From the IMG/VR virus record IMGVR_UViG_3300046507_000905, positions 1 through 21,347 of that record: a stretch of DNA of 21,347 bases; one strand, written 5' to 3'. Positions 2,557-18,132 of the stretch are shown here, piece after piece. Position 1 is the first letter of the stretch. Every line of letters starts with the position of its first letter. Under the pieces are notes generated by a model that saw only the letters and a list, made by a program, of their open reading frames with translations, was not told where the DNA came from and made no database searches. The DNA is from a virus. Made by a program: the position numbers and the translations under genes.

Positions 2557-3254
2557 AACGAAAAGACCAATCGGTGGCGGTTAAATATCGCTCATTCGAC
2601 TATGACGTGAAGGCTGTCGGCGAAGACGGCCTTTTTTCTGGGTACGGTTCTGTGTTCGGGGTCGTGGACAGCTACAACGAGGTTGTCGCGCCAGGCGCAT
2701 TTCTCGAATCAATCGCAGACGCCAAGGCGAAGTCGCGCACCTTTCCTGTGTTGTGGCAGCACCGCACTGGCGAGCCCATCGGCAGCTGGGATATCGAGAG
2801 CCTGAAGGAAGACGACCGCGGCCTTTTCGGCTCCGGCCAGCTCTGGCTCGAAGATGCCCCGTATGCGCGAATCGCCAACCGTGGCATGCAGTCGCGTTCT
2901 ATCACCGGCCTTTCCATCGGCTACTACGTGCGTGAGTCCAGCTTCGATGAGAAGACCCGGATTCGCACGTTGACCAAGCTCGACCTGGTCGAGATTTCCA
3001 TTGTCACCGTGCCGGCGAACGACGAAGCCCGCACCGACACCATCAAGTCGAAGCTGGCCCACGGTGGGCTGCCTTCGCTTCCCGAATTTGAGCTGCTCCT
3101 GCGTGAGGCAGGCTTCTCGAAAACTCAATCTGCGGTGATTGCCAACCGTGGATTGCAGCACCTGCTCCGGAGCGAGTCCGCGGGCGACCTGGCTGAAGCT
3201 GAACTTGTCGAGGCGATTAAGTCGCGCCCGGCACTGACTCTCCCATCGTTTTGA
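2553..3254 (+). CDS. Prohead protease, HK97 gp4 family
   Basis: Serine protease packed inside the procapsid that removes the N-terminal delta domain of the capsid protein and then digests itself. Length 233 residues. The family's catalytic triad can be placed by motif: His70 in VLWQH, Ser121 in ITGLSIGY, and Glu147 in LDLVEIS; HK97 gp4 uses His, Ser and Glu at equivalent spacing. The C-terminal 70 residues (after about 165) are less conserved and end in a helical part that fits a targeting or scaffold contact. The start overlaps the portal stop and has an AAGG site about 9 bases upstream. The next gene is the substrate, the major capsid protein, 9 bases downstream. Confidence 0.94.
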   Translation: MKRKDQSVAVKYRSFDYDVKAVGEDGLFSGYGSVFGVVDSYNEVVAPGAFLESIADAKAKSRTFPVLWQHRTGEPIGSWDIESLKEDDRGLFGSGQLWLEDAPYARIANRGMQSRSITGLSIGYYVRESSFDEKTRIRTLTKLDLVEISIVTVPANDEARTDTIKSKLAHGGLPSLPEFELLLREAGFSKTQSAVIANRGLQHLLRSESAGDLAEAELVEAIKSRPALTLPSF

Positions 3255-3263
3255 GGATTCACC

Positions 3264-4517
3264 ATGCATAACGCCATGAGCAACCAGGCTCGCTCCGAAA
3301 GCCGTCAAATGCAACGCAAGGAGCATTCCGACGACAAGATCCAGCTGAAAGCGGTCAATGACCTGCTGGACCAGCGCGACCAAGAAATCAAAGCCTTCGC
3401 CGAAAAGGCGAGCAAGGAAATCAAAGAGCACGGCACGATTCTGGCCGATACCAAAACCGTCCTCGACGGCCTGGTAAAGGATGGCCTGGGCCTCCAAGAT
3501 CGCCTGCAAGATATCGAGCAGAAAATGGCTCGCCGCTTCTCCGCCAACGATCCGGCCGAACAAAAATCCGCTGGCGAAGAACTGTCGGAGTCCGAAGACT
3601 TCCAGTCGCTGCAAACCCGCGGTCGCGGTATCGCTCGCATTGGTCGCAAAGCCGTAACCAACCTCACCAGCTCGACCACTGGCACCGGTGGCGTTGGCGC
3701 CGGTATCCAGGCCACCCGTGTGCCAGGAATCGTTGCCGGCCCAGACCGCGAATTCACCGTGCGCGACCTGATCATGCCAGGGCGCACGGCCTCGAACGCT
3801 ATCGAGTATGTCCGCGAAACCGGCTTCCAGAACATGGCCGCGCCGCAGGCCGGTGAGGGTGCAGCCAAGGCTCAGTCCGATCTCTCGTTCGGCCTGGTCA
3901 CCACCACCGTCAAGACCATTGCACACTGGTTCCGCGCTTCCAAGCAGGTGCTGTCGGATATCCCGCTGCTGCAGAGCTACATCAACGGCCGCGCGATCTA
4001 CGGCCTGAAGTACAAGGAAGAAGAGCAGCTCCTCGCTGGTGACGGTACCGGCCAGAATCTGCTGGGTCTGATTCCCCAAGCAACCGTCTTCAACGAATCG
4101 CTGCGTAAGGTCGGCGACACCAAGATCGACACCCTGCGCCGTGCAATCCTGCAGGTGCGCGTCGCTGAATACCGCGCCTCCGCTATCGCGCTGAACCCGG
4201 TCGACTGGGCGGACATCGAGCTGACCAAGGATGCCAACGGCTCTTACATCTGGGTCAACGTCCAAGAAGGTGGCGCACAGCGCCTGTGGAAACTGCCGGT
4301 GGTCGACAGCAACGCTGTGCCAGAGGGCGAATTTCTGGTCGGCGCTATGAACATTGCCGCCCAGGTCTTCGACCGTGAAGACGCTGCCGTCGAGGTTTCC
4401 ACCGAAGATGGCGACAACTTCCGCACCAACATGGTCACCATCCGCGCCGAAGAGCGCCTGGCCCTGGCCGTGTACCGTCCGGAATCTTTCGTCCACGGCG
4501 AATTCGACGCGGCCTAA
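3264..4517 (+). CDS. Major capsid protein, HK97 gp5 family, with N-terminal delta domain
   Basis: Forms the icosahedral shell. The 417-residue precursor has a charged helical delta domain (about residues 15-120, predicted coiled coil), a Ser/Thr/Gly-rich linker around 130-148 where the prohead protease probably cuts, and then the HK97 fold. The mature part aligns by eye, from memory, with HK97 gp5 (VRDLIMPGRTASNAIEYVRE, then KTIAHWFRASKQVLSDIPLL). Lys202, Asn389 and Glu396 line up with HK97 Lys169, Asn356 and Glu363, all with the same offset of 33, so covalent cross-linking is possible. The start at 3264 has GAGGA with 6 bases spacing; an alternative Met lies at 3276. No scaffold gene is present, as expected when the delta domain serves that role. 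Confidence 0.96.
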   Translation: MHNAMSNQARSESRQMQRKEHSDDKIQLKAVNDLLDQRDQEIKAFAEKASKEIKEHGTILADTKTVLDGLVKDGLGLQDRLQDIEQKMARRFSANDPAEQKSAGEELSESEDFQSLQTRGRGIARIGRKAVTNLTSSTTGTGGVGAGIQATRVPGIVAGPDREFTVRDLIMPGRTASNAIEYVRETGFQNMAAPQAGEGAAKAQSDLSFGLVTTTVKTIAHWFRASKQVLSDIPLLQSYINGRAIYGLKYKEEEQLLAGDGTGQNLLGLIPQATVFNESLRKVGDTKIDTLRRAILQVRVAEYRASAIALNPVDWADIELTKDANGSYIWVNVQEGGAQRLWKLPVVDSNAVPEGEFLVGAMNIAAQVFDREDAAVEVSTEDGDNFRTNMVTIRAEERLALAVYRPESFVHGEFDAA

Positions 4518-4790: not shown

Positions 4791-5267
4791 ATGAGCGTGA
4801 TCGACATCGAGTTGGCGATGAAGCATCTGCTGGCCGAGCCCGAAGACCAGGACCTGGTCGAGGCTCAGCTGGATGCGGCCGAAGAGGCCTGCATGCGGTT
4901 CCTGCAGCGCCGGTTCTTCGTCGATCAGGCCGCACTTGATGCGGGCAAGGCCGAGACGCTGCAGCGCACCAGGGATGCTCGGGGCCTGTACATGATTGCC
5001 ATGGGCACCGCCGACCTGCCTGAAAATCACGACTTCCAGCTTCGCTTGCGGGATAACGCCCGGCAGGCGCTCGCAGATGCGTACGAGGCCATCGACATGG
5101 ACGAGCACGGGATTATCATCAATGCTGCTATCTCTGCGGCCTGCCTGCTCAAGCTCGGGCACTTGTTCGCGAACCGCGAAGAGGTTGTCACGGGCACCAT
5201 CGCGACCGAGCTGCCGCTGGCGTCGAAGTCCCTGCTGATGCCTTATCGCATCCGGATGGGTGTTTGA
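4791..5267 (+). CDS. Head-tail connector protein (gp6-like adaptor)
   Basis: Neck component that forms a ring under the portal and extends the DNA channel. The 158-residue protein is mostly alpha-helical, with the typical gp6-like pattern: an N-terminal helix pair (IDIELAMKHLLAEPEDQDLV, EAQLDAAEEACMRFLQRRFF), a middle insertion, and a conserved C-terminal segment with IATELPLASKSLLMPYRIR, close to the family's ending 'LP.g...LL.PYR...'. This identifies it as an HK97 gp6 / SPP1 gp15 type adaptor. It begins 2 bases after the preceding stop, has no strong ribosome binding site of its own, and overlaps the next start (TGATG). Confidence 0.85.
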   Translation: MSVIDIELAMKHLLAEPEDQDLVEAQLDAAEEACMRFLQRRFFVDQAALDAGKAETLQRTRDARGLYMIAMGTADLPENHDFQLRLRDNARQALADAYEAIDMDEHGIIINAAISAACLLKLGHLFANREEVVTGTIATELPLASKSLLMPYRIRMGV

Positions 5268-5605
5268 TGCTGGCCGGCAAGTTGCGGCATCGCGTTGATT
5301 TCCAGGCGCTGGGAGAAGTGCAGGACCCGGCCAGCGGTGAGATGGTGCCCGGCTGGTCAACCATCTGGCCCAAGGTGCCGGCGTCCTTCCAGCCGCTGAG
5401 TGCCCGCGACATGATCGCTGCCCAGGCGGCCCAGTCCGAAGCCACGGCCCGGGTAGTGGTCCGGTACCGCGCCGGCGTGCTGCCGACCATGCGCATCATC
5501 CACCGCGGCGAGGTCTACGACATCAAGGGCCCGGCGCTCGCTGATCCTGATTCAGGCCTGGAATACCTCACCATTGTGGTGGCCAAGGGGGTGAACGATG
5601 GCTGA
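5267..5605 (+). CDS. Head closure / head-tail joining protein
   Basis: Neck protein of the SPP1 gp16 / HK97 head-tail joining family that seals the packaged head. The sequence is about 112 residues and follows the family pattern: an N-terminal LRHRVDFQALGEVQDPASGE, a conserved Trp-containing segment (GWSTIWPKVPASFQPLSARD), and a beta-rich C-terminal part (MRIIHRGEVYDIKGPALADP). The best start is the ATG at 5267, overlapping the stop of the connector gene in TGATG; a TTG at 5264 is possible but not needed. The gene overlaps the next start by 8 bases. Confidence 0.86.
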   Translation: MLAGKLRHRVDFQALGEVQDPASGEMVPGWSTIWPKVPASFQPLSARDMIAAQAAQSEATARVVVRYRAGVLPTMRIIHRGEVYDIKGPALADPDSGLEYLTIVVAKGVNDG

Positions 5606-10577: not shown

Positions 10578-11327
10578 ATGCCGTTGATCAATGACATCCA
10601 GGTGCTCGAGCCGGGCAGCGAGGTTTTGCTTTTCGAACTCGACGGCACCGACTATGGCGCCGATGTGCTTCGATTCCACGGGCATTCAATCCCGCACACC
10701 TCGGCCGAGATCCTGGCCGCCGGCGCCGATGCCGACCAGCTGCCGGCCAAGTCCATCTGGTGGCAGGGCAACGAGTACGGCGCCTGGCCTATGCAGATCG
10801 ATGGCATCCAGGCGACCGGCGACGGCACGGCCGTTCGGCCCACGCTGTCGGTGGGCAACGTGAATGGCCGCATCACAGCGCTGTGCCTGGCCTTCGATGA
10901 CCTGATCGAATTCAAGATGACCATGCATGACACGCTGGGGCGCTACCTTGATGCCCTGAACTTCCCCAGCGGCAACGCCGAGGCCGATCCCACGCAGGAA
11001 TCGATTGAGGTCTGGTACGTCGACCAGAAGACCAACGAGGACGGCGAGTCGGTCACGTGGGAGCTGGCCAGCCCAGGCGATGTCGGCAACGAGTCGGTGG
11101 GCCGCCAGATGACCACGCTCTGCCATTGGTGCCTCACGGGCGGCTACCGGGGCCCGGACTGCGGCTACACCGGCGGCTATGTGGACAAGGATGGCAACCC
11201 CACCGACGACCCTGAAAAGGACGAATGCGATGCCACGCTGGCGCGCGGGTGCGAACCCCGTTTTGGGGCAAACAATGAACTGCCGTTCGGCGGCTTCCCA
11301 GCCGTATCGCTGATCGTGCGGAGTTGA
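10578..11327 (+). CDS. Minor tail protein L, iron-sulfur type
   Basis: Tail tip protein, 249 residues. The N-terminal two thirds resemble lambda gpL (INDIQVLEPGSEVLLFELDG; TLSVGNVNGRITALCLAFDD). The C-terminal domain has the cysteine pattern that in lambda L binds a [4Fe-4S] cluster: Cys185, Cys195, Cys217 and Cys225, spaced x9-x21-x7, with an extra Cys182 close by. The surrounding residues RGPDCGYTGG and the ending LPFGGFPAVS are typical. The start at 10578 is preceded by AGGAA. The stop overlaps the region before the K start by a few bases. Confidence 0.92.
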   Translation: MPLINDIQVLEPGSEVLLFELDGTDYGADVLRFHGHSIPHTSAEILAAGADADQLPAKSIWWQGNEYGAWPMQIDGIQATGDGTAVRPTLSVGNVNGRITALCLAFDDLIEFKMTMHDTLGRYLDALNFPSGNAEADPTQESIEVWYVDQKTNEDGESVTWELASPGDVGNESVGRQMTTLCHWCLTGGYRGPDCGYTGGYVDKDGNPTDDPEKDECDATLARGCEPRFGANNELPFGGFPAVSLIVRS

Positions 11328-11329
11328 CC

Positions 11330-12091
11330 ATGCTCAAATACATACTCGAGGCGGTGCAGGCGCACGCCCAGGCCGAATACCCGCGCGAGTGCTGCGGGCT
11401 GCTGCTGGCCATTGGGCGCAAGCAGCAGTACTTCCCGTGCGCGAACACTGCCAGCGACCCCAAGGAAGAGTTCCGCATTGACCCGGCCGAATATGTCGCG
11501 GCTGAGGCGGTGGGCGAGGTGATCGGCATCGTGCACTCCCACCCGGATGCCACCAGCAGGCCGTCGCCGCGGGACCGGGCGATGTGCGAAGCCACCGAAT
11601 TGCCCTGGCACATCCTGTCCTGGCCTGAGGGCGACCTGCGCACCATCATCCCCGAAGGCAACACGCCGCTGCTCGGTCGCCCGTTCGTGCACGGCGCCTG
11701 GGATTGCTGGCAGGTCTGCGCCGATTGGTACCAGCGCGAGATGGGCCTGGAGTTCGAGCCATTCAAGCGCGAAGACGGGTGGTGGGAGGACGCCGCCGGC
11801 CCCAGCCTCTACGAACAGGCCTACGAGGCTGCCGGGTTCGAGCGGGTGGGCACGCCGCAACGTGGCGACCTGATTGTCATGGCAGTGGGCAAGACCGCGC
11901 ACCCGAACCACGCTGGCATCTACCTGGCGGCCGATCCGGGGCTGCCTGGTGAGGCATCAGGCGTGCACGGCCAAGGGCCATTCCTTCTGCACCACCTGTA
12001 CGGCCGGCCCTCGGAGATCATTGTCTTCGGCGGCCCCTGGCACGACCGAACTCGCCTGGTGCTGCGCCATAAGGATTCGAAACCAGCATGA
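11330..12091 (+). CDS. Tail assembly protein K: JAMM metalloprotease plus NlpC/P60 domain
   Basis: Lambda gpK-type tail tip protein, 253 residues from the ATG at 11330 (GGAG 6 bases upstream; a TTG at 11324 overlaps the L stop and is less likely). The N-terminal JAMM/Mov34 domain is intact: Glu20 in PRECCGLL, then His69-Ser-His71-Pro, Ser79 and Asp82 in the exact H-x-H-P-x6-S-x2-D spacing, so zinc binding is expected. The C-terminal NlpC/P60 cysteine peptidase domain has Cys126 in GAWDCWQVCADWY and His194 in PNHAGIYLA. Both domains therefore keep their probable catalytic residues. Roles proposed for this family include tail tip assembly and cell wall opening at infection. Confidence 0.93.
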   Translation: MLKYILEAVQAHAQAEYPRECCGLLLAIGRKQQYFPCANTASDPKEEFRIDPAEYVAAEAVGEVIGIVHSHPDATSRPSPRDRAMCEATELPWHILSWPEGDLRTIIPEGNTPLLGRPFVHGAWDCWQVCADWYQREMGLEFEPFKREDGWWEDAAGPSLYEQAYEAAGFERVGTPQRGDLIVMAVGKTAHPNHAGIYLAADPGLPGEASGVHGQGPFLLHHLYGRPSEIIVFGGPWHDRTRLVLRHKDSKPA

Positions 12092-12094
12092 GCG

Positions 12095-12138
12095 CCGGAG
12101 CCGTGGCGGTGTGCGCGCCTAGCATCTGCGGGCTCCGG
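12095..12138 (+). other. Inverted repeat at left edge of lipoprotein cassette
   Basis: CCGGAGCC (12095-12102) is repeated in inverted form as GGCTCCGG (12131-12138) across a 28-base loop, starting 4 bases after the stop of K. It is not followed by a T-run, so it is not a classical terminator. It marks the exact boundary between high-G+C tail genes and the lower-G+C cassette that follows. It may be a weak terminator or a remnant of the insertion. Confidence 0.45.
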
Positions 12139-12147
12139 TTGGGCATT

Positions 12148-12176
12148 TTGAAAGGTATATGGCTAAGTGCTACAGT
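12148..12176 (+). promoter_or_regulatory. Predicted sigma-70 promoter of the lipoprotein cassette
   Basis: TTGAAA (12148-12153), a 17-base spacer, then TACAGT (12171-12176), with TG one base before the -10 (12168-12169), i.e. an extended -10. Transcription would start near 12183, about 20 bases before the lipoprotein start. It is located in a low-G+C gap inside a high-G+C operon, so a chance match is less likely than usual. Confidence 0.6.
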
Positions 12177-12203
12177 CGCATCTTAATTTCAAAGGAAATG
12201 AAA

Positions 12204-12605
12204 ATGATGCGTCGTACAGTCGCTTTTCTGGCGGTCACTGCCATGCTGACAGGTTGCGCTAACACCAAAGAGGTGGACTCTTGGAGGGCCGAAGCACAGC
12301 GAACAATTCCTATCTGCGTCAGCGACAATCAGTGCCAAGTAATGTGGTCAGCGGCCCGGGGATGGGTTCTGAATCATGCAGGAACGAAAATCCAGAATTA
12401 CGGCGTCGATTATTTCGACACCTACAATCCTATTCAGAATAGTCCAAGACTTGCCGCGCAAGTTTCGAAGGACGCGTTAGGGGCCGGAAAGTACAAAATT
12501 ATCGCCAAGCTGTGGTGCGACAATATGTTCGGATGTCAGCCCAACGCTTGGCAGGCGCTATTAGATTTCAATCGATCCGTTAACCTCGCAGGATCTGGGC
12601 AGTGA
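12204..12605 (+). CDS. Predicted outer-membrane lipoprotein with paired C-x5-C-Q motifs (moron gene)
   Basis: A 133-residue lipoprotein. The signal peptide MMRRTVAFLAVTAMLTGC has lipobox LTGC with Cys18; Ala at +2 predicts export to the outer membrane. Two similar motifs are present: Cys38-x5-Cys44-Gln-x2-Trp48 and Cys105-x5-Cys111-Gln-x3-Trp116, which could form two disulfide loops. I do not recognise a characterised family. The start at 12204 (or 12207) is chosen because AAGGA lies 7 bases upstream and because an earlier Met at 12159 falls inside the predicted promoter. Codon use and base composition are clearly more A/T-rich than the flanking tail genes. The position with its own promoter inside the tail operon fits a lysogenic conversion or superinfection exclusion gene (inference). 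Confidence 0.82.
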   Translation: MMRRTVAFLAVTAMLTGCANTKEVDSWRAEAQRTIPICVSDNQCQVMWSAARGWVLNHAGTKIQNYGVDYFDTYNPIQNSPRLAAQVSKDALGAGKYKIIAKLWCDNMFGCQPNAWQALLDFNRSVNLAGSGQ

Positions 12606-12627
12606 GCCGAAAGGCTGGAGTTTAAGT

Positions 12628-12972
12628 ATGCGAATTTTAGTCGGAACGCTTGCAGTTGCCCTGCTGGCCGGGTGTGCTTCTCCCAGCGATCTCAGGGCTG
12701 GCTCGCCCACCGTGAGCACCGCCACGAAGAAAACACCAAAGGCTTACGCGCTGTGCGTCTTCCCCAAGTGGCAAGACGCCAGGTCCGAAGCGGCCATGTC
12801 TGAAACTCAGGATGGCTATCGGTTGCTCATTGCCGCCTCGGGGCAGACGGATGAACTTCTCGACATCGCGGCCAAGGGAGCAGGCAGCTCCGTTAGGTTC
12901 TACCAACGCGCGGCTTGGCTGCCGGGAGTGGGCCGGGCAGCAGTCGAAAGCGCGGTCAAATCCTGCCTTTGA
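12628..12972 (+). CDS. Predicted outer-membrane lipoprotein (second gene of moron)
   Basis: A 114-residue lipoprotein with signal peptide MRILVGTLAVALLAGC, lipobox LAGC and Cys16 followed by Ala, so outer-membrane sorting is expected. A low-complexity linker (about 17-38, rich in Ser, Thr, Lys) leads to a small domain with Cys43 and Cys113 that could form a disulfide. No characterised family is recognised. The ribosome binding site is TGGAG, 7 bases from the ATG. It follows the first lipoprotein after 22 bases and is followed by a strong terminator, so the two form one transcription unit. G+C is closer to that of the phage than in the first gene. Confidence 0.8.
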   Translation: MRILVGTLAVALLAGCASPSDLRAGSPTVSTATKKTPKAYALCVFPKWQDARSEAAMSETQDGYRLLIAASGQTDELLDIAAKGAGSSVRFYQRAAWLPGVGRAAVESAVKSCL

Positions 12973-12985
12973 GCAGGAAGCATAC

Positions 12986-13008
12986 AAAGCCGCCTTCGGG
13001 CGGTTTTT
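12986..13008 (+). terminator. Intrinsic terminator closing the lipoprotein cassette
   Basis: CCGCC (12990-12994) and GGCGG (12999-13003) with a TTCG tetraloop, extended by A/T pairs from the upstream AAAG, followed by five T (13004-13008). This is the strongest hairpin of the series. It separates the lipoproteins from the tail gene I, whose ATG is 18 bases downstream of the T-run. Confidence 0.8.
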
Positions 13009-13025
13009 CATTTCTAGGGGGAGTC

Positions 13026-13616
13026 ATGGCGGCAACAGCAGCCCACTACACGCCGATGACAGAAATCCTTCTGTCTGGATCGCTCGCGAGCAAATTCGGG
13101 CGCAGGCATCGCCGATTGCTGGACTCGGGCCAGACCTGGGAGGCCTTCAAGGCACTCAAGTCCACCATCCCAGGCTTTGCCGAGGAGGTTAAGCGGCTCG
13201 ATTCGCTGGGCATGCGATTCGTCGTGTTCAGGAACCGCGCAAGCGCAAATGAAACCGAGTTTTCCATGGGAGGCACCCGGGAAGTACGCATTGTCCCCGT
13301 GGTGGCCGGTAGCAAGCGAGCAGGCCTGCTGCAAACAGTACTTGGAGTGATCCTGATCGCGGTCTCCTTTATCCCAGGCTTTCAGGCTGCAGCGGGGCCA
13401 GGCATTGCACTGGTCGCCGGCGGCGTCATCCAAATGCTCAGCCCCCAGGCCTCCGGGCTCAAGCAGAGCGCCTCGCCCGACAACCTGCCCAGCTACGCTT
13501 TCGGCAGCGCGAACAACACCACCGCCAGCGGCAACCCGGTGCCCATCTGCATCGGCGAGCGCCGGTGGGGCGGGGCGATCATCAGCGCCTCGATTTACGC
13601 CGAAGACAAGACCTGA
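13026..13616 (+). CDS. Tail assembly protein I
   Basis: Lambda gpI-type protein, 196 residues, required for tail tip assembly and always located between K and J. The start is the ATG at 13026 with GGGGGA upstream; a longer open frame would run through the terminator. The N-terminal half has the ubiquitin-like fold pattern of the family (LDSGQTWEAFKALKSTIPGF; RFVVFRNRASANE). It is followed by EVRIVPVVAGSKRAG and two hydrophobic stretches (LLQTVLGVILIAVSFIPGF and GPGIALVAGGVIQMLSP) that are typical for gpI. The C-terminus NTTASGNPVPICIGERRWGG is also a family feature, resembling the start of J. The normal K-I junction is interrupted here by the lipoprotein cassette. Confidence 0.92.
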   Translation: MAATAAHYTPMTEILLSGSLASKFGRRHRRLLDSGQTWEAFKALKSTIPGFAEEVKRLDSLGMRFVVFRNRASANETEFSMGGTREVRIVPVVAGSKRAGLLQTVLGVILIAVSFIPGFQAAAGPGIALVAGGVIQMLSPQASGLKQSASPDNLPSYAFGSANNTTASGNPVPICIGERRWGGAIISASIYAEDKT

Positions 13617-13637
13617 TCCAACGCCACTGACACCCGG

Positions 13638-13659
13638 CCGCCCATGAGGCGGTTTTTTT
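13638..13659 (+). terminator. Intrinsic terminator-like hairpin before J
   Basis: CCGCC (13638-13642), loop CATGA, GGCGG (13648-13652), then seven T. It is followed by TGCCTGGAGAAA (13661-13672), the ribosome-binding block, and the ATG of J at 13676. Same module as at 18151 and 19755. Confidence 0.75.
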
Positions 13660-13675
13660 ATGCCTGGAGAAAAGC

Positions 13676-16600
13676 ATGGGCGCAGCACAGCACCTGGACA
13701 TCGCCGGCGCCAAGAGCGGCAGCAGCAGCGCCAAGACGCCCGTCGAGGCCTCCGACAGCCTGCGCTCTACCAACCTGGCCAAGATTCTGATCGCGGTGGG
13801 CGAGGGTGAATTCGAGGGCACGCCGTCGGCAGCCGACATCTACCTCGACAACACCCCGATCAACGACGCCAGCGGCAACGTGAACTACCCGAACGTGACC
13901 TGGTCCTGGCGCAATGGCGCGGTCGATCAGTCGTACATCCCGGGCATCCCGTCGGTAGAAAACGAGACGACCATCAACGTCGAGCTGCGCAGCGACACCG
14001 CCTGGGTCCGGTCCATCACCAACCTGCAGCTGTCGGCTGTACGCGTGCGCCTGGCGTGGCCGGCCCTGCAGCAGCAGGACGACGAAGGCAATGTGGGCGG
14101 GTACCGCATCGAGTACGCCATCGATGTTTCCACTGACGGCGGCAGCTACCAGCAGGTGCTCGATGAAGCTGTCGACGGTAAGACCACCACCAGGTACGAG
14201 CGCTCGCGCCGCATTGATCTGCCGGCGGCCACCAGCGGTTGGCAGATCCGCGTGCGCCGCATCACGCCGAACCAGAACACCAACAAGATCGCCGACACCA
14301 TGCTGGTGGCTGGCATCACCGAGGTGATCGACGCGAAGCTTCGGTACCCGAACACCGCGCTGCTGTACATCGAGTTCGACGCCGAGCAGTTCACCAACAT
14401 CCCAGCCGTCACCGTGAAGTGCAAGGCCCGCAAGTGGCAGGTGCCCAGCAACTACGACCCGGTGGCCCGCACCTACAGCGGAGTCTGGGACGGCACCATG
14501 AAGGAAGCCTGGACCAACAACGCCGCCTGGATCACCTACGGCATCTGCACTGTGGACCGCTTCGGCCTGGGCAAGCGCATCAAGTCGTGGATGGTGGACA
14601 AGTGGGAGCTGTACCGCATCGCGCAGTACTGCGACCAGCTGGTGCCGAACGGCGTGGGCGGCACCGAGCCGCGCTACCTCTGCGACATGAACATTCAGGC
14701 CAAGGCCGACGCCTGGTCGCTGCTGCGCGACATTTCGGCGATCTACCGGGGCATGACCTACTGGGCCCAGGGCCAGCTGGTGGCGCAGGCCGACATGCCG
14801 CGCGCCCAGGACTTCGACTACGTCTTCACGCGCGCTAACGTGATCGACGGAAAGTTTTCCTACAGCAGCGCGTCGTCGAAGACCCGCTATACCCGGGCAC
14901 TGGTCAGCTACGACAACCCGGCCAACAACTACGACACCGACGTGACGGCCTATGCCGACCTGGTCCAGCAGCGCCGCTTCGGCGACAAGCCTGTCGAGAT
15001 CAGCGCCATTGGGTGCACGCGCGCTTCCGAGGCCCAGCGCCGCGGTAAGTGGGTGATCCTGAGCAACAACCAGGACCGCACCGTTTCGTTCAAGACCGGT
15101 ATGGAAGGCAGTATCCCGCTGCCGGGCTACATCATCCCCGTGGCCGACTCGCTGCTAGCTGGTCGGGAGATCGGCGGGCGCATCTCCAGCGCCGCCGGCG
15201 TGATGGTCACGCTAGACCGGGACACCCAGGCCAAGGCCGGTGATCGCTTGATCATCAACCTGCCCAGTGGCAAGGCCGAGGCGCGCACGGTGGCTTCGGT
15301 GGCCGGCCGCGCCGTCACCGTGACCACAGCCTATAGCGAGGCGCCCGGGGCGCAGCTGCAGTGGGCGCTGGACGCTGATGATCTGTCGATTCCGCTGTAC
15401 CGCGTGCTCACCACCAAGCGCACCACCGAGGGCGACTACGAAATCACGGCGCTGCAGTACGAGCCGAGCAAGTTCGACGCTATCGACACCGGCGCGCGCC
15501 TGGAAGAAAAGCCGATTAGCGTGATCCCGATCACTGTAGTGCCGGCGCCAGCCAGCATTTCGGTGACCTCGACCAGCAGCATCATTCAGGGCCTGGCTGT
15601 TGCGACGATGACCATCGCCTGGCCCGCCGTGACTGGTGCGGTGGCCTACGACGTGGAGTGGCGCAAGGACAGCGGCAACTGGATGAAAGTGGCCCGCACC
15701 GGCGCGCTGAACGTCGACGTTACCGGCATCTACGCCGGCGGCTACGTCGCCCGGGTGCGCGCCGTCAGTGCGTTCGACATCTCGTCGATCTGGCGCACGT
15801 CGGTGCTGACGCAGCTGGCGGGTAAGGTCGGCACGCCGCCGGCCGTGACCAGCCTGACGGCTACCAGCCAGCTGTTCGGCATTGCCCTGGCCTGGAACTT
15901 CCCGGCGGGCGCCGAGGACACCCAGCGCACCGAGCTCTGGTACGGCACCTCGCCGAGCCTGGATGCCGCCGCGAAGCTGAGCGACCTGGCGTACCCGCAA
16001 CGGGACTACGTGCTCCAGAACCTGAAGGCCGGCGCCACGCTCTACTTCTGGGCGCGCCTGGTGGATCGGATCGGTAACATCGGTCCCTTCTACCCAACGG
16101 GCAACGGAGTGCAGGGCATTGCCAGCACGGATGCCACGTTGATCCTTGAGCAGATCGCCGGAGAGATAACTAAAACCCAGCTGGGTCAGGACCTGCTGGA
16201 CGAGATCAACCTGATTCCCGGCCTGCAGGATCAAATCGACGATCTGTCGAACCCTCTGATGTACGTGCCCACCGATGCCTATGCATCCGGCGCCGTGGTT
16301 TATCAGGGCGACCGGCTATACCAGGCTATCGCTGCGGTTCCCGCTGCCGCCGATGGCAGCAACGCGCCGCCCAATGTCACCTACTGGAAGGATGTCGGCC
16401 AGATCCTCAACACCGCGAACGCCTTGGCGCTCCAGGTGCAAGAGAACACCGCTGATATCAGTGAACTCGACGGCGTGGTTACGGCCCAGGCATCGAGCGT
16501 GCAAGTGCTGCGCGCGGCCTACCGGGATGACGACGGGGAGGGTGACCTGCAGGGCGCACTGAAACTGTGGGACACCCAGGCGACCTACTCGAAAGAGGTG

Positions 16601-17152
16601 GTGGTGCGGGCAACACAGGATCAGGCGTTGGTGCAGACAGCGGAAACCCTGCAGGCGACCGTCGCTGATAGCAACGCCGCTGTGCAGACCACCAGCCAGG
16701 CAGTCGCCGACCTGAGCGGCAAGGCCTCGGCCATGTGGTCGGTCAAGCTGCAGGTGAACTCGCAGGGGCAATACGTTGCCGCGGGCATCGGCCTAGGAAT
16801 CGAGAACACTGCTGCTGGCCTGCAAAGTCAGTTCCTTGTGTCGGCCGATCGGTTCGCCGTGGTCAACAACGTGGATGGCACGCTTATCAGCCCGTTCGCG
16901 GTGCAGGGCGGCCAGGTATTCATCAATTCCGGCGTTTTCCAAGATGCATCGATCACCTTCGGCAAGATCACAGACTCGCTCCAGTCCACCGGCTATATCA
17001 CCGATACGACCGGCTGGAGACTGGGCAAGGATGGCACGCTGAATCTGAACGGCGCTGGCACCGGCTATCGACTCAAGCTTAATTCCAACGGGTTTTACCT
17101 GACGGATACAACGACTGGTGTCGTCGTGGTGGAACTTGGAGTGCTCTCATGA
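13676..17152 (+). CDS. Tail tip / host specificity protein J
   Basis: Central tail tip protein, 1158 residues, which contacts the receptor and carries the fibres. Residues 1-600 are the conserved hub region of gpJ (LRSTNLAKILIAVGEGEFEG; KSWMVDKWELYRIAQYCDQL; DMNIQAKADAWSLLRDISAI). Two fibronectin type III-like domains follow (about 622-710 and 718-815). A small aromatic module (about 862-908: Y..sGavVyqGdrLYqA ... YWKDVG) resembles a carbohydrate-binding fold. A DUF1983-like segment (about 985-1065, with WSVKLQVNSQGQYVAAGIGL) and a C-terminal beta part complete it. The ribosome binding site is TGGAGAAAA. The stop overlaps the next gene (ATGA). G+C remains high to the end, unlike the following genes. 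Confidence 0.95.
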   Translation: MGAAQHLDIAGAKSGSSSAKTPVEASDSLRSTNLAKILIAVGEGEFEGTPSAADIYLDNTPINDASGNVNYPNVTWSWRNGAVDQSYIPGIPSVENETTINVELRSDTAWVRSITNLQLSAVRVRLAWPALQQQDDEGNVGGYRIEYAIDVSTDGGSYQQVLDEAVDGKTTTRYERSRRIDLPAATSGWQIRVRRITPNQNTNKIADTMLVAGITEVIDAKLRYPNTALLYIEFDAEQFTNIPAVTVKCKARKWQVPSNYDPVARTYSGVWDGTMKEAWTNNAAWITYGICTVDRFGLGKRIKSWMVDKWELYRIAQYCDQLVPNGVGGTEPRYLCDMNIQAKADAWSLLRDISAIYRGMTYWAQGQLVAQADMPRAQDFDYVFTRANVIDGKFSYSSASSKTRYTRALVSYDNPANNYDTDVTAYADLVQQRRFGDKPVEISAIGCTRASEAQRRGKWVILSNNQDRTVSFKTGMEGSIPLPGYIIPVADSLLAGREIGGRISSAAGVMVTLDRDTQAKAGDRLIINLPSGKAEARTVASVAGRAVTVTTAYSEAPGAQLQWALDADDLSIPLYRVLTTKRTTEGDYEITALQYEPSKFDAIDTGARLEEKPISVIPITVVPAPASISVTSTSSIIQGLAVATMTIAWPAVTGAVAYDVEWRKDSGNWMKVARTGALNVDVTGIYAGGYVARVRAVSAFDISSIWRTSVLTQLAGKVGTPPAVTSLTATSQLFGIALAWNFPAGAEDTQRTELWYGTSPSLDAAAKLSDLAYPQRDYVLQNLKAGATLYFWARLVDRIGNIGPFYPTGNGVQGIASTDATLILEQIAGEITKTQLGQDLLDEINLIPGLQDQIDDLSNPLMYVPTDAYASGAVVYQGDRLYQAIAAVPAAADGSNAPPNVTYWKDVGQILNTANALALQVQENTADISELDGVVTAQASSVQVLRAAYRDDDGEGDLQGALKLWDTQATYSKEVVVRATQDQALVQTAETLQATVADSNAAVQTTSQAVADLSGKASAMWSVKLQVNSQGQYVAAGIGLGIENTAAGLQSQFLVSADRFAVVNNVDGTLISPFAVQGGQVFINSGVFQDASITFGKITDSLQSTGYITDTTGWRLGKDGTLNLNGAGTGYRLKLNSNGFYLTDTTTGVVVVELGVLS

Positions 17153-17451
17153 CGGTAGGCTTACGGGTTAGGGATCGGACTACCGGCCAAGTCATTGTCG
17201 AATACACGGACCGAATGACCAGGATCGTCGGCAGCTTCAGCACAGGGACCGCTGCGGGCTCTGTCACTGTCGACCTCTCGCTAGGTACCGGATGGGCAGC
17301 CGTCATGGAGGTGCCTCCTACCAATCCTAATATTGCGAACTATTACCGATACCCAAGGGTTACGGTGACAGGGAACATCATATCTTGGGATTTTCCCGGC
17401 GACTCGAGCTGGACGATACTGTCCTGCGTCGTTCTGTATGGTGTGCACTAG
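17149..17451 (+). CDS. Small tail tip accessory protein, single ~100-residue repeat module
   Basis: A 100-residue protein that starts within the J stop (ATGA) and ends directly against the next ATG. Its start GLRVRDRTTGQVIVEY resembles two segments of the following protein (GMRIRNNGNILQVDGN and GLKIRNNTTGAVLFNS), spaced by 300 and 303 bases, so it is probably one copy of a repeated beta-rich domain. Short proteins beginning with G-L-x-[VI] and lying behind J are common in Pseudomonas and related siphophages, but their function is not known; they probably decorate the tail tip. Lower G+C than J suggests exchange of this receptor-binding region. No signal peptide or membrane segment is present. 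Confidence 0.75.
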   Translation: MTVGLRVRDRTTGQVIVEYTDRMTRIVGSFSTGTAAGSVTVDLSLGTGWAAVMEVPPTNPNIANYYRYPRVTVTGNIISWDFPGDSSWTILSCVVLYGVH

Positions 17452-18132
17452 ATGATCGGCATGCGGATCAGGAACAATGGCAATATTCTGCAGGTCGATG
17501 GCAACTATCAGAACATGGAGGTATCCGCCCAAGGGACAGCGACTACATCGGGATCCTATGGTGGTACAAGTGAGATGTACGCTGACATCCCAATACCATC
17601 TGGCAGAGGAAACTCCCTGCTTGCTGTATATGGCGCGACAGCCGCAGTGTATTGCAAGAAGCAGGACGCCAACACCTTCAGGGTATTTTCACAGGCCAGC
17701 ACCCCGGCAACGTTTACCTACTATCTGTTTTCCACGCCTCAGGCTGTGAGTGGGGGAGTGGGCCTCAAGATCAGGAACAACACCACCGGCGCCGTGCTGT
17801 TCAATTCGCGCTACAAGTACCTCAGGGTACTTGACTACCTCACCGGTACCCTTGCCATTGACTCCGCTATCAGTCGCCAGTACCCCGGCAAAAAAGTCGC
17901 AATAATTCAGACACTGCGTCCTTTCCACATAAAAATAGACTCCGGGGGGACGAGTCAGCAACCGGCAGGCGTGTTCACCTTCCGAAGTGGTCAGATGACG
18001 AATCCGCAGTCGGACACAGCTACGGTGACCTTTGGTATTTCTTTCGTTTTTGGTGGGCCCGTCCAGGTCACGCCGGTGGCCAATGGTATGAACTCCATCG
18101 GCTACTTGGTGATAGACGTCACCGGATACTGA
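17452..18132 (+). CDS. Tail tip accessory protein with two repeat modules
   Basis: A 226-residue protein starting at the base after the previous stop. It appears to consist of two modules related to the 100-residue protein upstream: module A begins at residue 3 (GMRIRNNGNILQVDGN), and module B at residue 104 (GLKIRNNTTGAVLFNSRYKY). Both are predicted beta-rich, with the pattern G-[LM]-[KR]-[IV]-R-[ND] followed by G and a strand. The C-terminus ends in NSIGYLVIDVTGY. No enzyme motif is seen. The gene is followed by a terminator-like hairpin. Position between J and the tail fibre, together with lower G+C than J, suggests a role in receptor contact or fibre attachment. Function is inferred from context only. 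Confidence 0.75.
   Translation: MIGMRIRNNGNILQVDGNYQNMEVSAQGTATTSGSYGGTSEMYADIPIPSGRGNSLLAVYGATAAVYCKKQDANTFRVFSQASTPATFTYYLFSTPQAVSGGVGLKIRNNTTGAVLFNSRYKYLRVLDYLTGTLAIDSAISRQYPGKKVAIIQTLRPFHIKIDSGGTSQQPAGVFTFRSGQMTNPQSDTATVTFGISFVFGGPVQVTPVANGMNSIGYLVIDVTGY

Follow-up and report, generated by a model that had tools for sequence, protein, structure and literature searches.

A putative moron slot with exchangeable lipoprotein genes between tail genes K and I of lambda-like Pseudomonas phages

What are two lipoprotein genes doing between tail genes K and I, at a junction that is tight in phage lambda, and do they form a unit of their own or a part of the tail? The window analyzed here, the whole stretch of 21,347 bases from a virus record, carries a lambda-type tail module (tape measure, M, L, K, I and J). 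In this module, K, with JAB and NlpC/P60 domains (11324-12091, + strand; PF14464, 7.8e-19; PF00877, 1.7e-09; phrog_30, 1.9e-116), flanks the locus on the left and I (13026-13616, + strand; phrog_32, 2.2e-60) on the right, followed by J, the tip attachment protein gene (13676-17152, + strand; PF24801, 3.9e-48). From the K stop at 12091 to the I start at 13026 lie two open reading frames on the same strand, both with lipoprotein signal peptides, as a preliminary description of this DNA had noticed: gene A (12204-12605, + strand), encoding 133 aa with the lipobox LTGC, and gene B (12628-12972, + strand), encoding 114 aa with the lipobox LAGC. That description read the pair as a self-contained two-lipoprotein moron. 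Comparison with relatives retains an inserted lipoprotein locus with its own putative promoter and terminator, both conserved by position, and one empty junction, but not the two-gene unit.

Transcription signals and the empty junction

The extended -10 promoter previously proposed 5' of A is present as a sigma-70-type motif (12148-12176, + strand), with TTGAAA at 12148-12153, a 17-base spacer, TACAGT at 12171-12176 and TG at 12168-12169, and its position is conserved in relatives. A search for TGnTAnnnT ending 20 to 34 bases 5' of the start codon found it in front of 80 of 118 distinct B-type genes, where shuffling predicts 1.6, and of all six distinct A genes; at that distance, it preceded none of the tail genes (M 0/105, L 0/108, K 0/115, I 0/83, J 0/108). 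A T-rich -35 position emerged from the aligned sites, although it had been left out of the search motif, and the 38 B-type genes lacking the strict motif include several that lie behind a co-directional gene and others with near-miss motifs. The distance from K to B is 34-37 bases in "empty" types, in several of which K's TGA stop overlaps the promoter TG element; elsewhere, this space holds varied genes and extends to as much as 5.3 kb.

At the other end, the hairpin described 3' of B is likewise found, a predicted intrinsic terminator with a TTCG loop and a T run (12986-13007, + strand) that would close the slot before I. A script placed a terminator 5' of I in 68 of 70 relatives, compared with 2/67 for M, 4/69 for L and 7/70 for K; the two misses are L156, whose junction is empty, and L094, whose hairpin is present and was clipped by the search window. 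The positional conservation of the putative promoter and terminator across relatives is more than chance. The boundary inverted repeat, by contrast with these signals, did not survive scrutiny: its two 8-base arms (12095-12102 and 12131-12138, within 12095-12138) were matched in 27 of 500 dinucleotide shuffles, the fold lay about 1.2 sd below the shuffles, and a repeat search at 12 bases listed none. We accordingly rejected it as an insertion signal.

Base composition separates the two genes. The A/T-richness reported for the first gene is borne out, with A at 51.5% GC and 56.0% GC3, below K (66.7/82.8), I (62.8/76.1) and J (64.1/84.8) and the 63-67% GC of the neighbors L, K, I and J, whereas B, at 61.4% GC and 66.1% GC3, is not A/T-rich. 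Two genes 3' of J (17149-18132) also fall below the tail genes, at 55.4% and 53.7% GC.

Searching the relatives for an empty K-I junction, as had been suggested, yielded L156, in which the K stop and I start overlap as ATGA and no terminator is found; the tight junction ascribed to lambda-like tails is thus seen in a relative, and the locus stands between genes that are adjacent there. Lambdoid morons, such as HK97 gp15, lie among tail genes and bring a promoter and a terminator of their own. On sequence grounds, the reading of the slot as a moron holds, the motifs for both signals being in place, with the difference that what is seen here is a standing slot for exchangeable lipoprotein bodies.

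Slot occupancy and body exchange

Both genes belong to recognizable phage families, B matching phrog_914 over its full length (residues 1-114, 7.7e-33) and A matching phrog_16082 over residues 6-126 (3.5e-28), also a full-length match. The lipobox Cys is invariant in 39 aligned B and eight aligned A sequences, A having four further conserved Cys; the match to the LPAM_1 profile remained below its cut-off. In tblastn searches of phage records, B was matched in four records and A in two E. coli phages (41.6%), and B lies between K and I in Serratia OS31 and in vB_PaeS-D14P, the latter lacking an annotated gene at the matched position. Scans of viral contigs, which return close relatives only, gave 66 loci for B and nine for A.

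To gauge occupancy, 80 of 598 loci were sampled through K, without reference to A or B. K and I were both within reach in 70, and the other 10 had no gpI in the stretch, L093, L095, L110 and L112 among them despite about 6 kb of sequence after K. The 70 junctions comprise 34 with B or B3, 30 with B2 and six with none of these, so that a lipoprotein of type B, B2 or B3 (B3 tallied under B) occupies 64 of 70, counts that are not independent, as the relatives share ancestry. In the six exceptions, we read other lipoproteins (L107 and L130), another exported protein (L146), long inserts (L129 and L135) and the empty junction of L156.

Sampling through K turned up gene A at none of the 70 junctions, which speaks against the claim that A and B are one unit. 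So does the nearest relative, L015 (K 95% and the N-terminal part of J 98%), which matches the window up to 12103 and again from the ATG of B; there, the same TGCTACAGT element stands immediately 5' of B, A is missing, and unrelated DNA lies between K and the promoter. In the viral and Pseudomonas loci that do carry A, a B-type gene follows it in 10 of 11 loci other than the window (L014 repeats L007), the body being B in the window, L007 and L010, B2 in L006, L008, L009, L011, L159 and L160, and B3 in L012. In the eleventh, L013, we read A as a solitary gene close to one that is integrase-like, with what seems a decayed signal-peptide stretch behind it. Since A is joined to all three body types, it is no fixed partner of B, and the comparison identifies it as a rarer addition to the slot.

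The body types themselves were compared in 120 distinct B-type genes (76 B, 35 B2 and nine B3). Of 72 distinct signal peptides, five occur with more than one body type, and the cross-type DNA identity over the first 48 bases averages 69%, the level found within types, and reaches 100%, falling to 27% over the next stretch. B and B2 are unrelated in their mature parts; B and B3 share a Cys-W-Q and C-terminal Cys pattern, which B2 does not show, and may be remote relatives. The same signal-peptide DNA heads mature bodies that are unrelated to each other, which suggests that bodies have been exchanged while the promoter and leader stayed constant. At the level of sequence, these comparisons demonstrate a slot with promoter-like and terminator-like ends, the exchange of its bodies and the independence of A from B.

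Relatives and known systems

Both families extend beyond phages. Of 149 Pseudomonas genomes, 123 contain matches to phrog_914, usually at two to six places; 33 short loci around such matches divide into 19 close to gpI and 14 with no K, I or J within about 3 kb. Judging from their translations, some chromosomal B-family copies adjoin genes for OsmE-like lipoproteins or AlkB/Ada-like or GNAT-like genes; L204-L213 are chromosomal B-family lipoproteins in Pseudomonas, some of them beside an OsmE-like lipoprotein gene. Relatives of A (29-39%) were found in 10 Burkholderiaceae genomes and, in the two Caballeronia loci that we read, are flanked by gshA-like and MFS-like genes. Because both have relatives in chromosomal contexts, A and B seem to represent lipoprotein families of hosts that phages acquired, a direction that we infer.

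Neither protein gave a clear fold or a relation to the other. Foldseek searches of the PDB with models of A (built from seven sequences, pLDDT 74.9) and B returned no match with E <= 0.001, a PDB sequence-profile search of both gave no convincing match, and PADLOC-DB profiles matched neither up to E 1. The best structural scores, for VIA (Z up to 7.9 for B and 7.6 for A) and Flpp3 (7.6 and 7.4), were not above background and were set aside as a known fold, and similarity to the helix-grip/BamC-like fold (BamC N-domain, Z 6.6 for B and 6.8 for A) was in the range usual for models that lack a clear match. Homology between A and B was likewise rejected, as hhalign aligned just 13 signal-peptide columns.

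The nearest functional precedents are phage exclusion lipoproteins. Cor of phi80, N15 and related phages is a small lipoprotein encoded near tail fiber genes that brings about exclusion through inactivation of FhuA (PMC4936722). A and B, at 133 and 114 aa, are also small phage lipoproteins near tail tip or fiber genes, but no homology to Cor was detected beyond the signal peptide: the Cor profile phrog_1119 covered only the signal peptide of A (residues 2-23, E 0.055) and was not listed for B. T5, a lytic phage, offers a further case, with a lipoprotein, Llp, that is smaller than A and B. Llp is encoded beside the receptor-binding gene, is periplasmic, and jams FhuA from inside (PMC9586334). 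In the mEpimmI phages, the lipoproteins Lpp021 and Lpp010, of which several sequence types occur in the structural gene cluster, have tested exclusion activity (PMC11893012); the slot lipoproteins resemble them in having several types among structural genes, the mEpimmI phages being coliphages.

Slot lipoproteins have themselves been noticed before, the authors of phiAH14a and Serratia OS31 having proposed, in silico, that theirs are Cor analogues (PMC4936722, PMC7556043). We assign phiAH14a p83 to body type B2 and OS31 p54 to type B, both in the K-I slot; in the available text, these accounts treat one gene each and mention neither the slot, nor its conserved signals for transcription start and stop, nor the exchange of bodies (PMC4936722, PMC7556043). 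None of the open-licence papers listed by our literature searches described the slot or body exchange in its title or opening abstract; such a description may be in print elsewhere. As far as the literature searched shows, the new part is the slot architecture with exchangeable bodies.

Possible functions and other cargo

The explanation that we favor, and consider on balance probable as a whole, is a lysogen-expressed moron slot for envelope lipoproteins. The K-I junction of these Pseudomonas lambda-like phages would be a standing cassette in the late tail operon, made up of a promoter, a short leader, a lipoprotein signal peptide, an exchangeable mature domain and a terminator, with B as the resident lipoprotein. 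In this phage, A stands between the promoter and B, 22 bases from the latter, so that both are expected on one transcript that starts near 12183 and ends near 13007. Host RNA polymerase would transcribe A and B in the uninduced lysogen, and late readthrough past the terminator before I would supply I and J. We hold this part, the slot and its lysogen expression, to be likely. The E. coli sorting rule has it that the residue after the lipobox Cys, if Ala and not Asp, favors the outer membrane, and in both A and B this residue is Ala; both proteins would be exported and probably anchored there. The altered envelope would then benefit the lysogen, most plausibly through an action from the periplasmic side, like that of T5 Llp, that blocks competing phages at adsorption or at the entry of their DNA.

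Exclusion is the best-precedented function, and we put it forward only tentatively as the one selected. A receptor-specific self-exclusion protein might be expected to track the tip of J, and the mature part of B did not do so significantly for the J C-terminus (partial r 0.11, permutation p 0.10, n = 53, from 126 typed loci, 62 with complete J, duplicates removed), which counts against a strict receptor match. The lack of a PADLOC match and a resemblance to Cor confined to the signal peptide also weigh against the favored explanation. Given that both proteins have chromosomal relatives, a general envelope role would be as natural as exclusion. It is quite possible, if short of probable, that A and B were captured from hosts as envelope lipoproteins and aid the bacterium, in envelope stress or surface properties, with no role in exclusion. 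The frequency of phrog_914 in Pseudomonas genomes and the chromosomal relatives of both genes point this way, as does a BamE-domain lipoprotein that fills the slot in L029, but the slot lies beside tail tip genes, as cor genes do (PMC4936722), and repeated exchange of bodies would fit an arms race better than housekeeping aid.

That B, and with it A, could be an ordinary tail gene, acting late only in tail-tip assembly or infection, is suggested by its presence in most K-I junctions, by the covariation of its mature part with gpI in the same 53 loci (partial r 0.39, p 0.001; 0.62 for type B only), and by the occurrence of a lipoprotein together with gpI outside tail operons in phiAH14a and its satellite phiAH14b. 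The preliminary description had reasoned that genes carried by all related phages with normal composition would be ordinary tail genes, and B comes close, being nearly fixed and near-normal in composition; its own putative promoter and terminator nonetheless make it look unlike such a gene. L156, moreover, does wholly without a lipoprotein, the lambda junction is tight, unrelated bodies replace each other, and the association with gpI may reflect linkage, B and I being about 50 bases apart. We regard this alternative as improbable. Still further from likely is a dedicated two-component lipoprotein system of A and B: the genes are adjacent behind one promoter, and A nearly always precedes a B-type gene, but the partner varies among B, B2 and B3, of which B and B2 are unrelated in their mature parts, and sampling through K recovered no A in 70 junctions.

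Beyond the favored reading of a lysogen-expressed slot, a bolder one, which we consider rather unlikely, is that of an exchange platform. Here, the constant promoter, leader and signal peptide would be a recombination handle that takes up host-derived lipoprotein bodies, each phage lineage changing the surface protein of its lysogen; the lipoprotein and gpI would form a portable module that also moved into satellite phiAH14b, and superinfection exclusion would be diversified by mimicry of host lipoproteins. In phiAH14a, a second B and gpI lie near the repressor, outside the tail operon (L003, 5001-5981), this B copy having similar promoter-like and terminator-like sequences, which counts in favor of the lysogen-expressed slot, and satellite phiAH14b carries gpI and a B2-like lipoprotein (L215, 6001-7065). 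Such cassettes did not prove to be common: K and J were absent, among 85 loci, only from phiAH14b, the second copy of phiAH14a and perhaps L226, whose sequence stops shortly past I.

With a defined slot and its constant start signal, export leader and stop signal, the surface genes of Pseudomonas lambda-like prophages can be located from their position, even where they are unannotated, as is the B2-like body gene in 10 of 15 P. aeruginosa phage records among the matches listed. The swapped bodies behind one leader also offer a ready experimental series, the same expression with a different protein, by which exclusion or envelope phenotypes could be assigned to each body.

Other cargo occurs at the same place. 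Pfam searches of two sets of 10 proteins gave BamE and SocA/Panacea in one and Bro-N, P22_AR_N, MCP, FtsK_gamma and DUF6338 in the other, and PADLOC matched none of 10 hand-picked cargo proteins, of many, as defense genes. Antirepressor-type genes lie between K and I in L072 (3918-5874) and L218 (605-2294), with Bro-N and P22_AR_N domains and Rha in Medea1, so the slot can hold regulators too, and L061 has a methyl-accepting chemotaxis protein gene (2640-4280) in the space between K and B. The I-J junction (13617-13675 in the window) looks like a second slot, empty here, since a second putative intrinsic terminator (13636-13654, + strand) recurs in 67 of 69 relatives and the gap exceeds 200 bases in 13 of 69. 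L214, from a Pseudomonas genome, has a remote B relative between I and J (4941-5294), and in E. coli phage HK639, a B2-like lipoprotein gene lies directly 3' of the tape measure gene (L217, 3959-4372).
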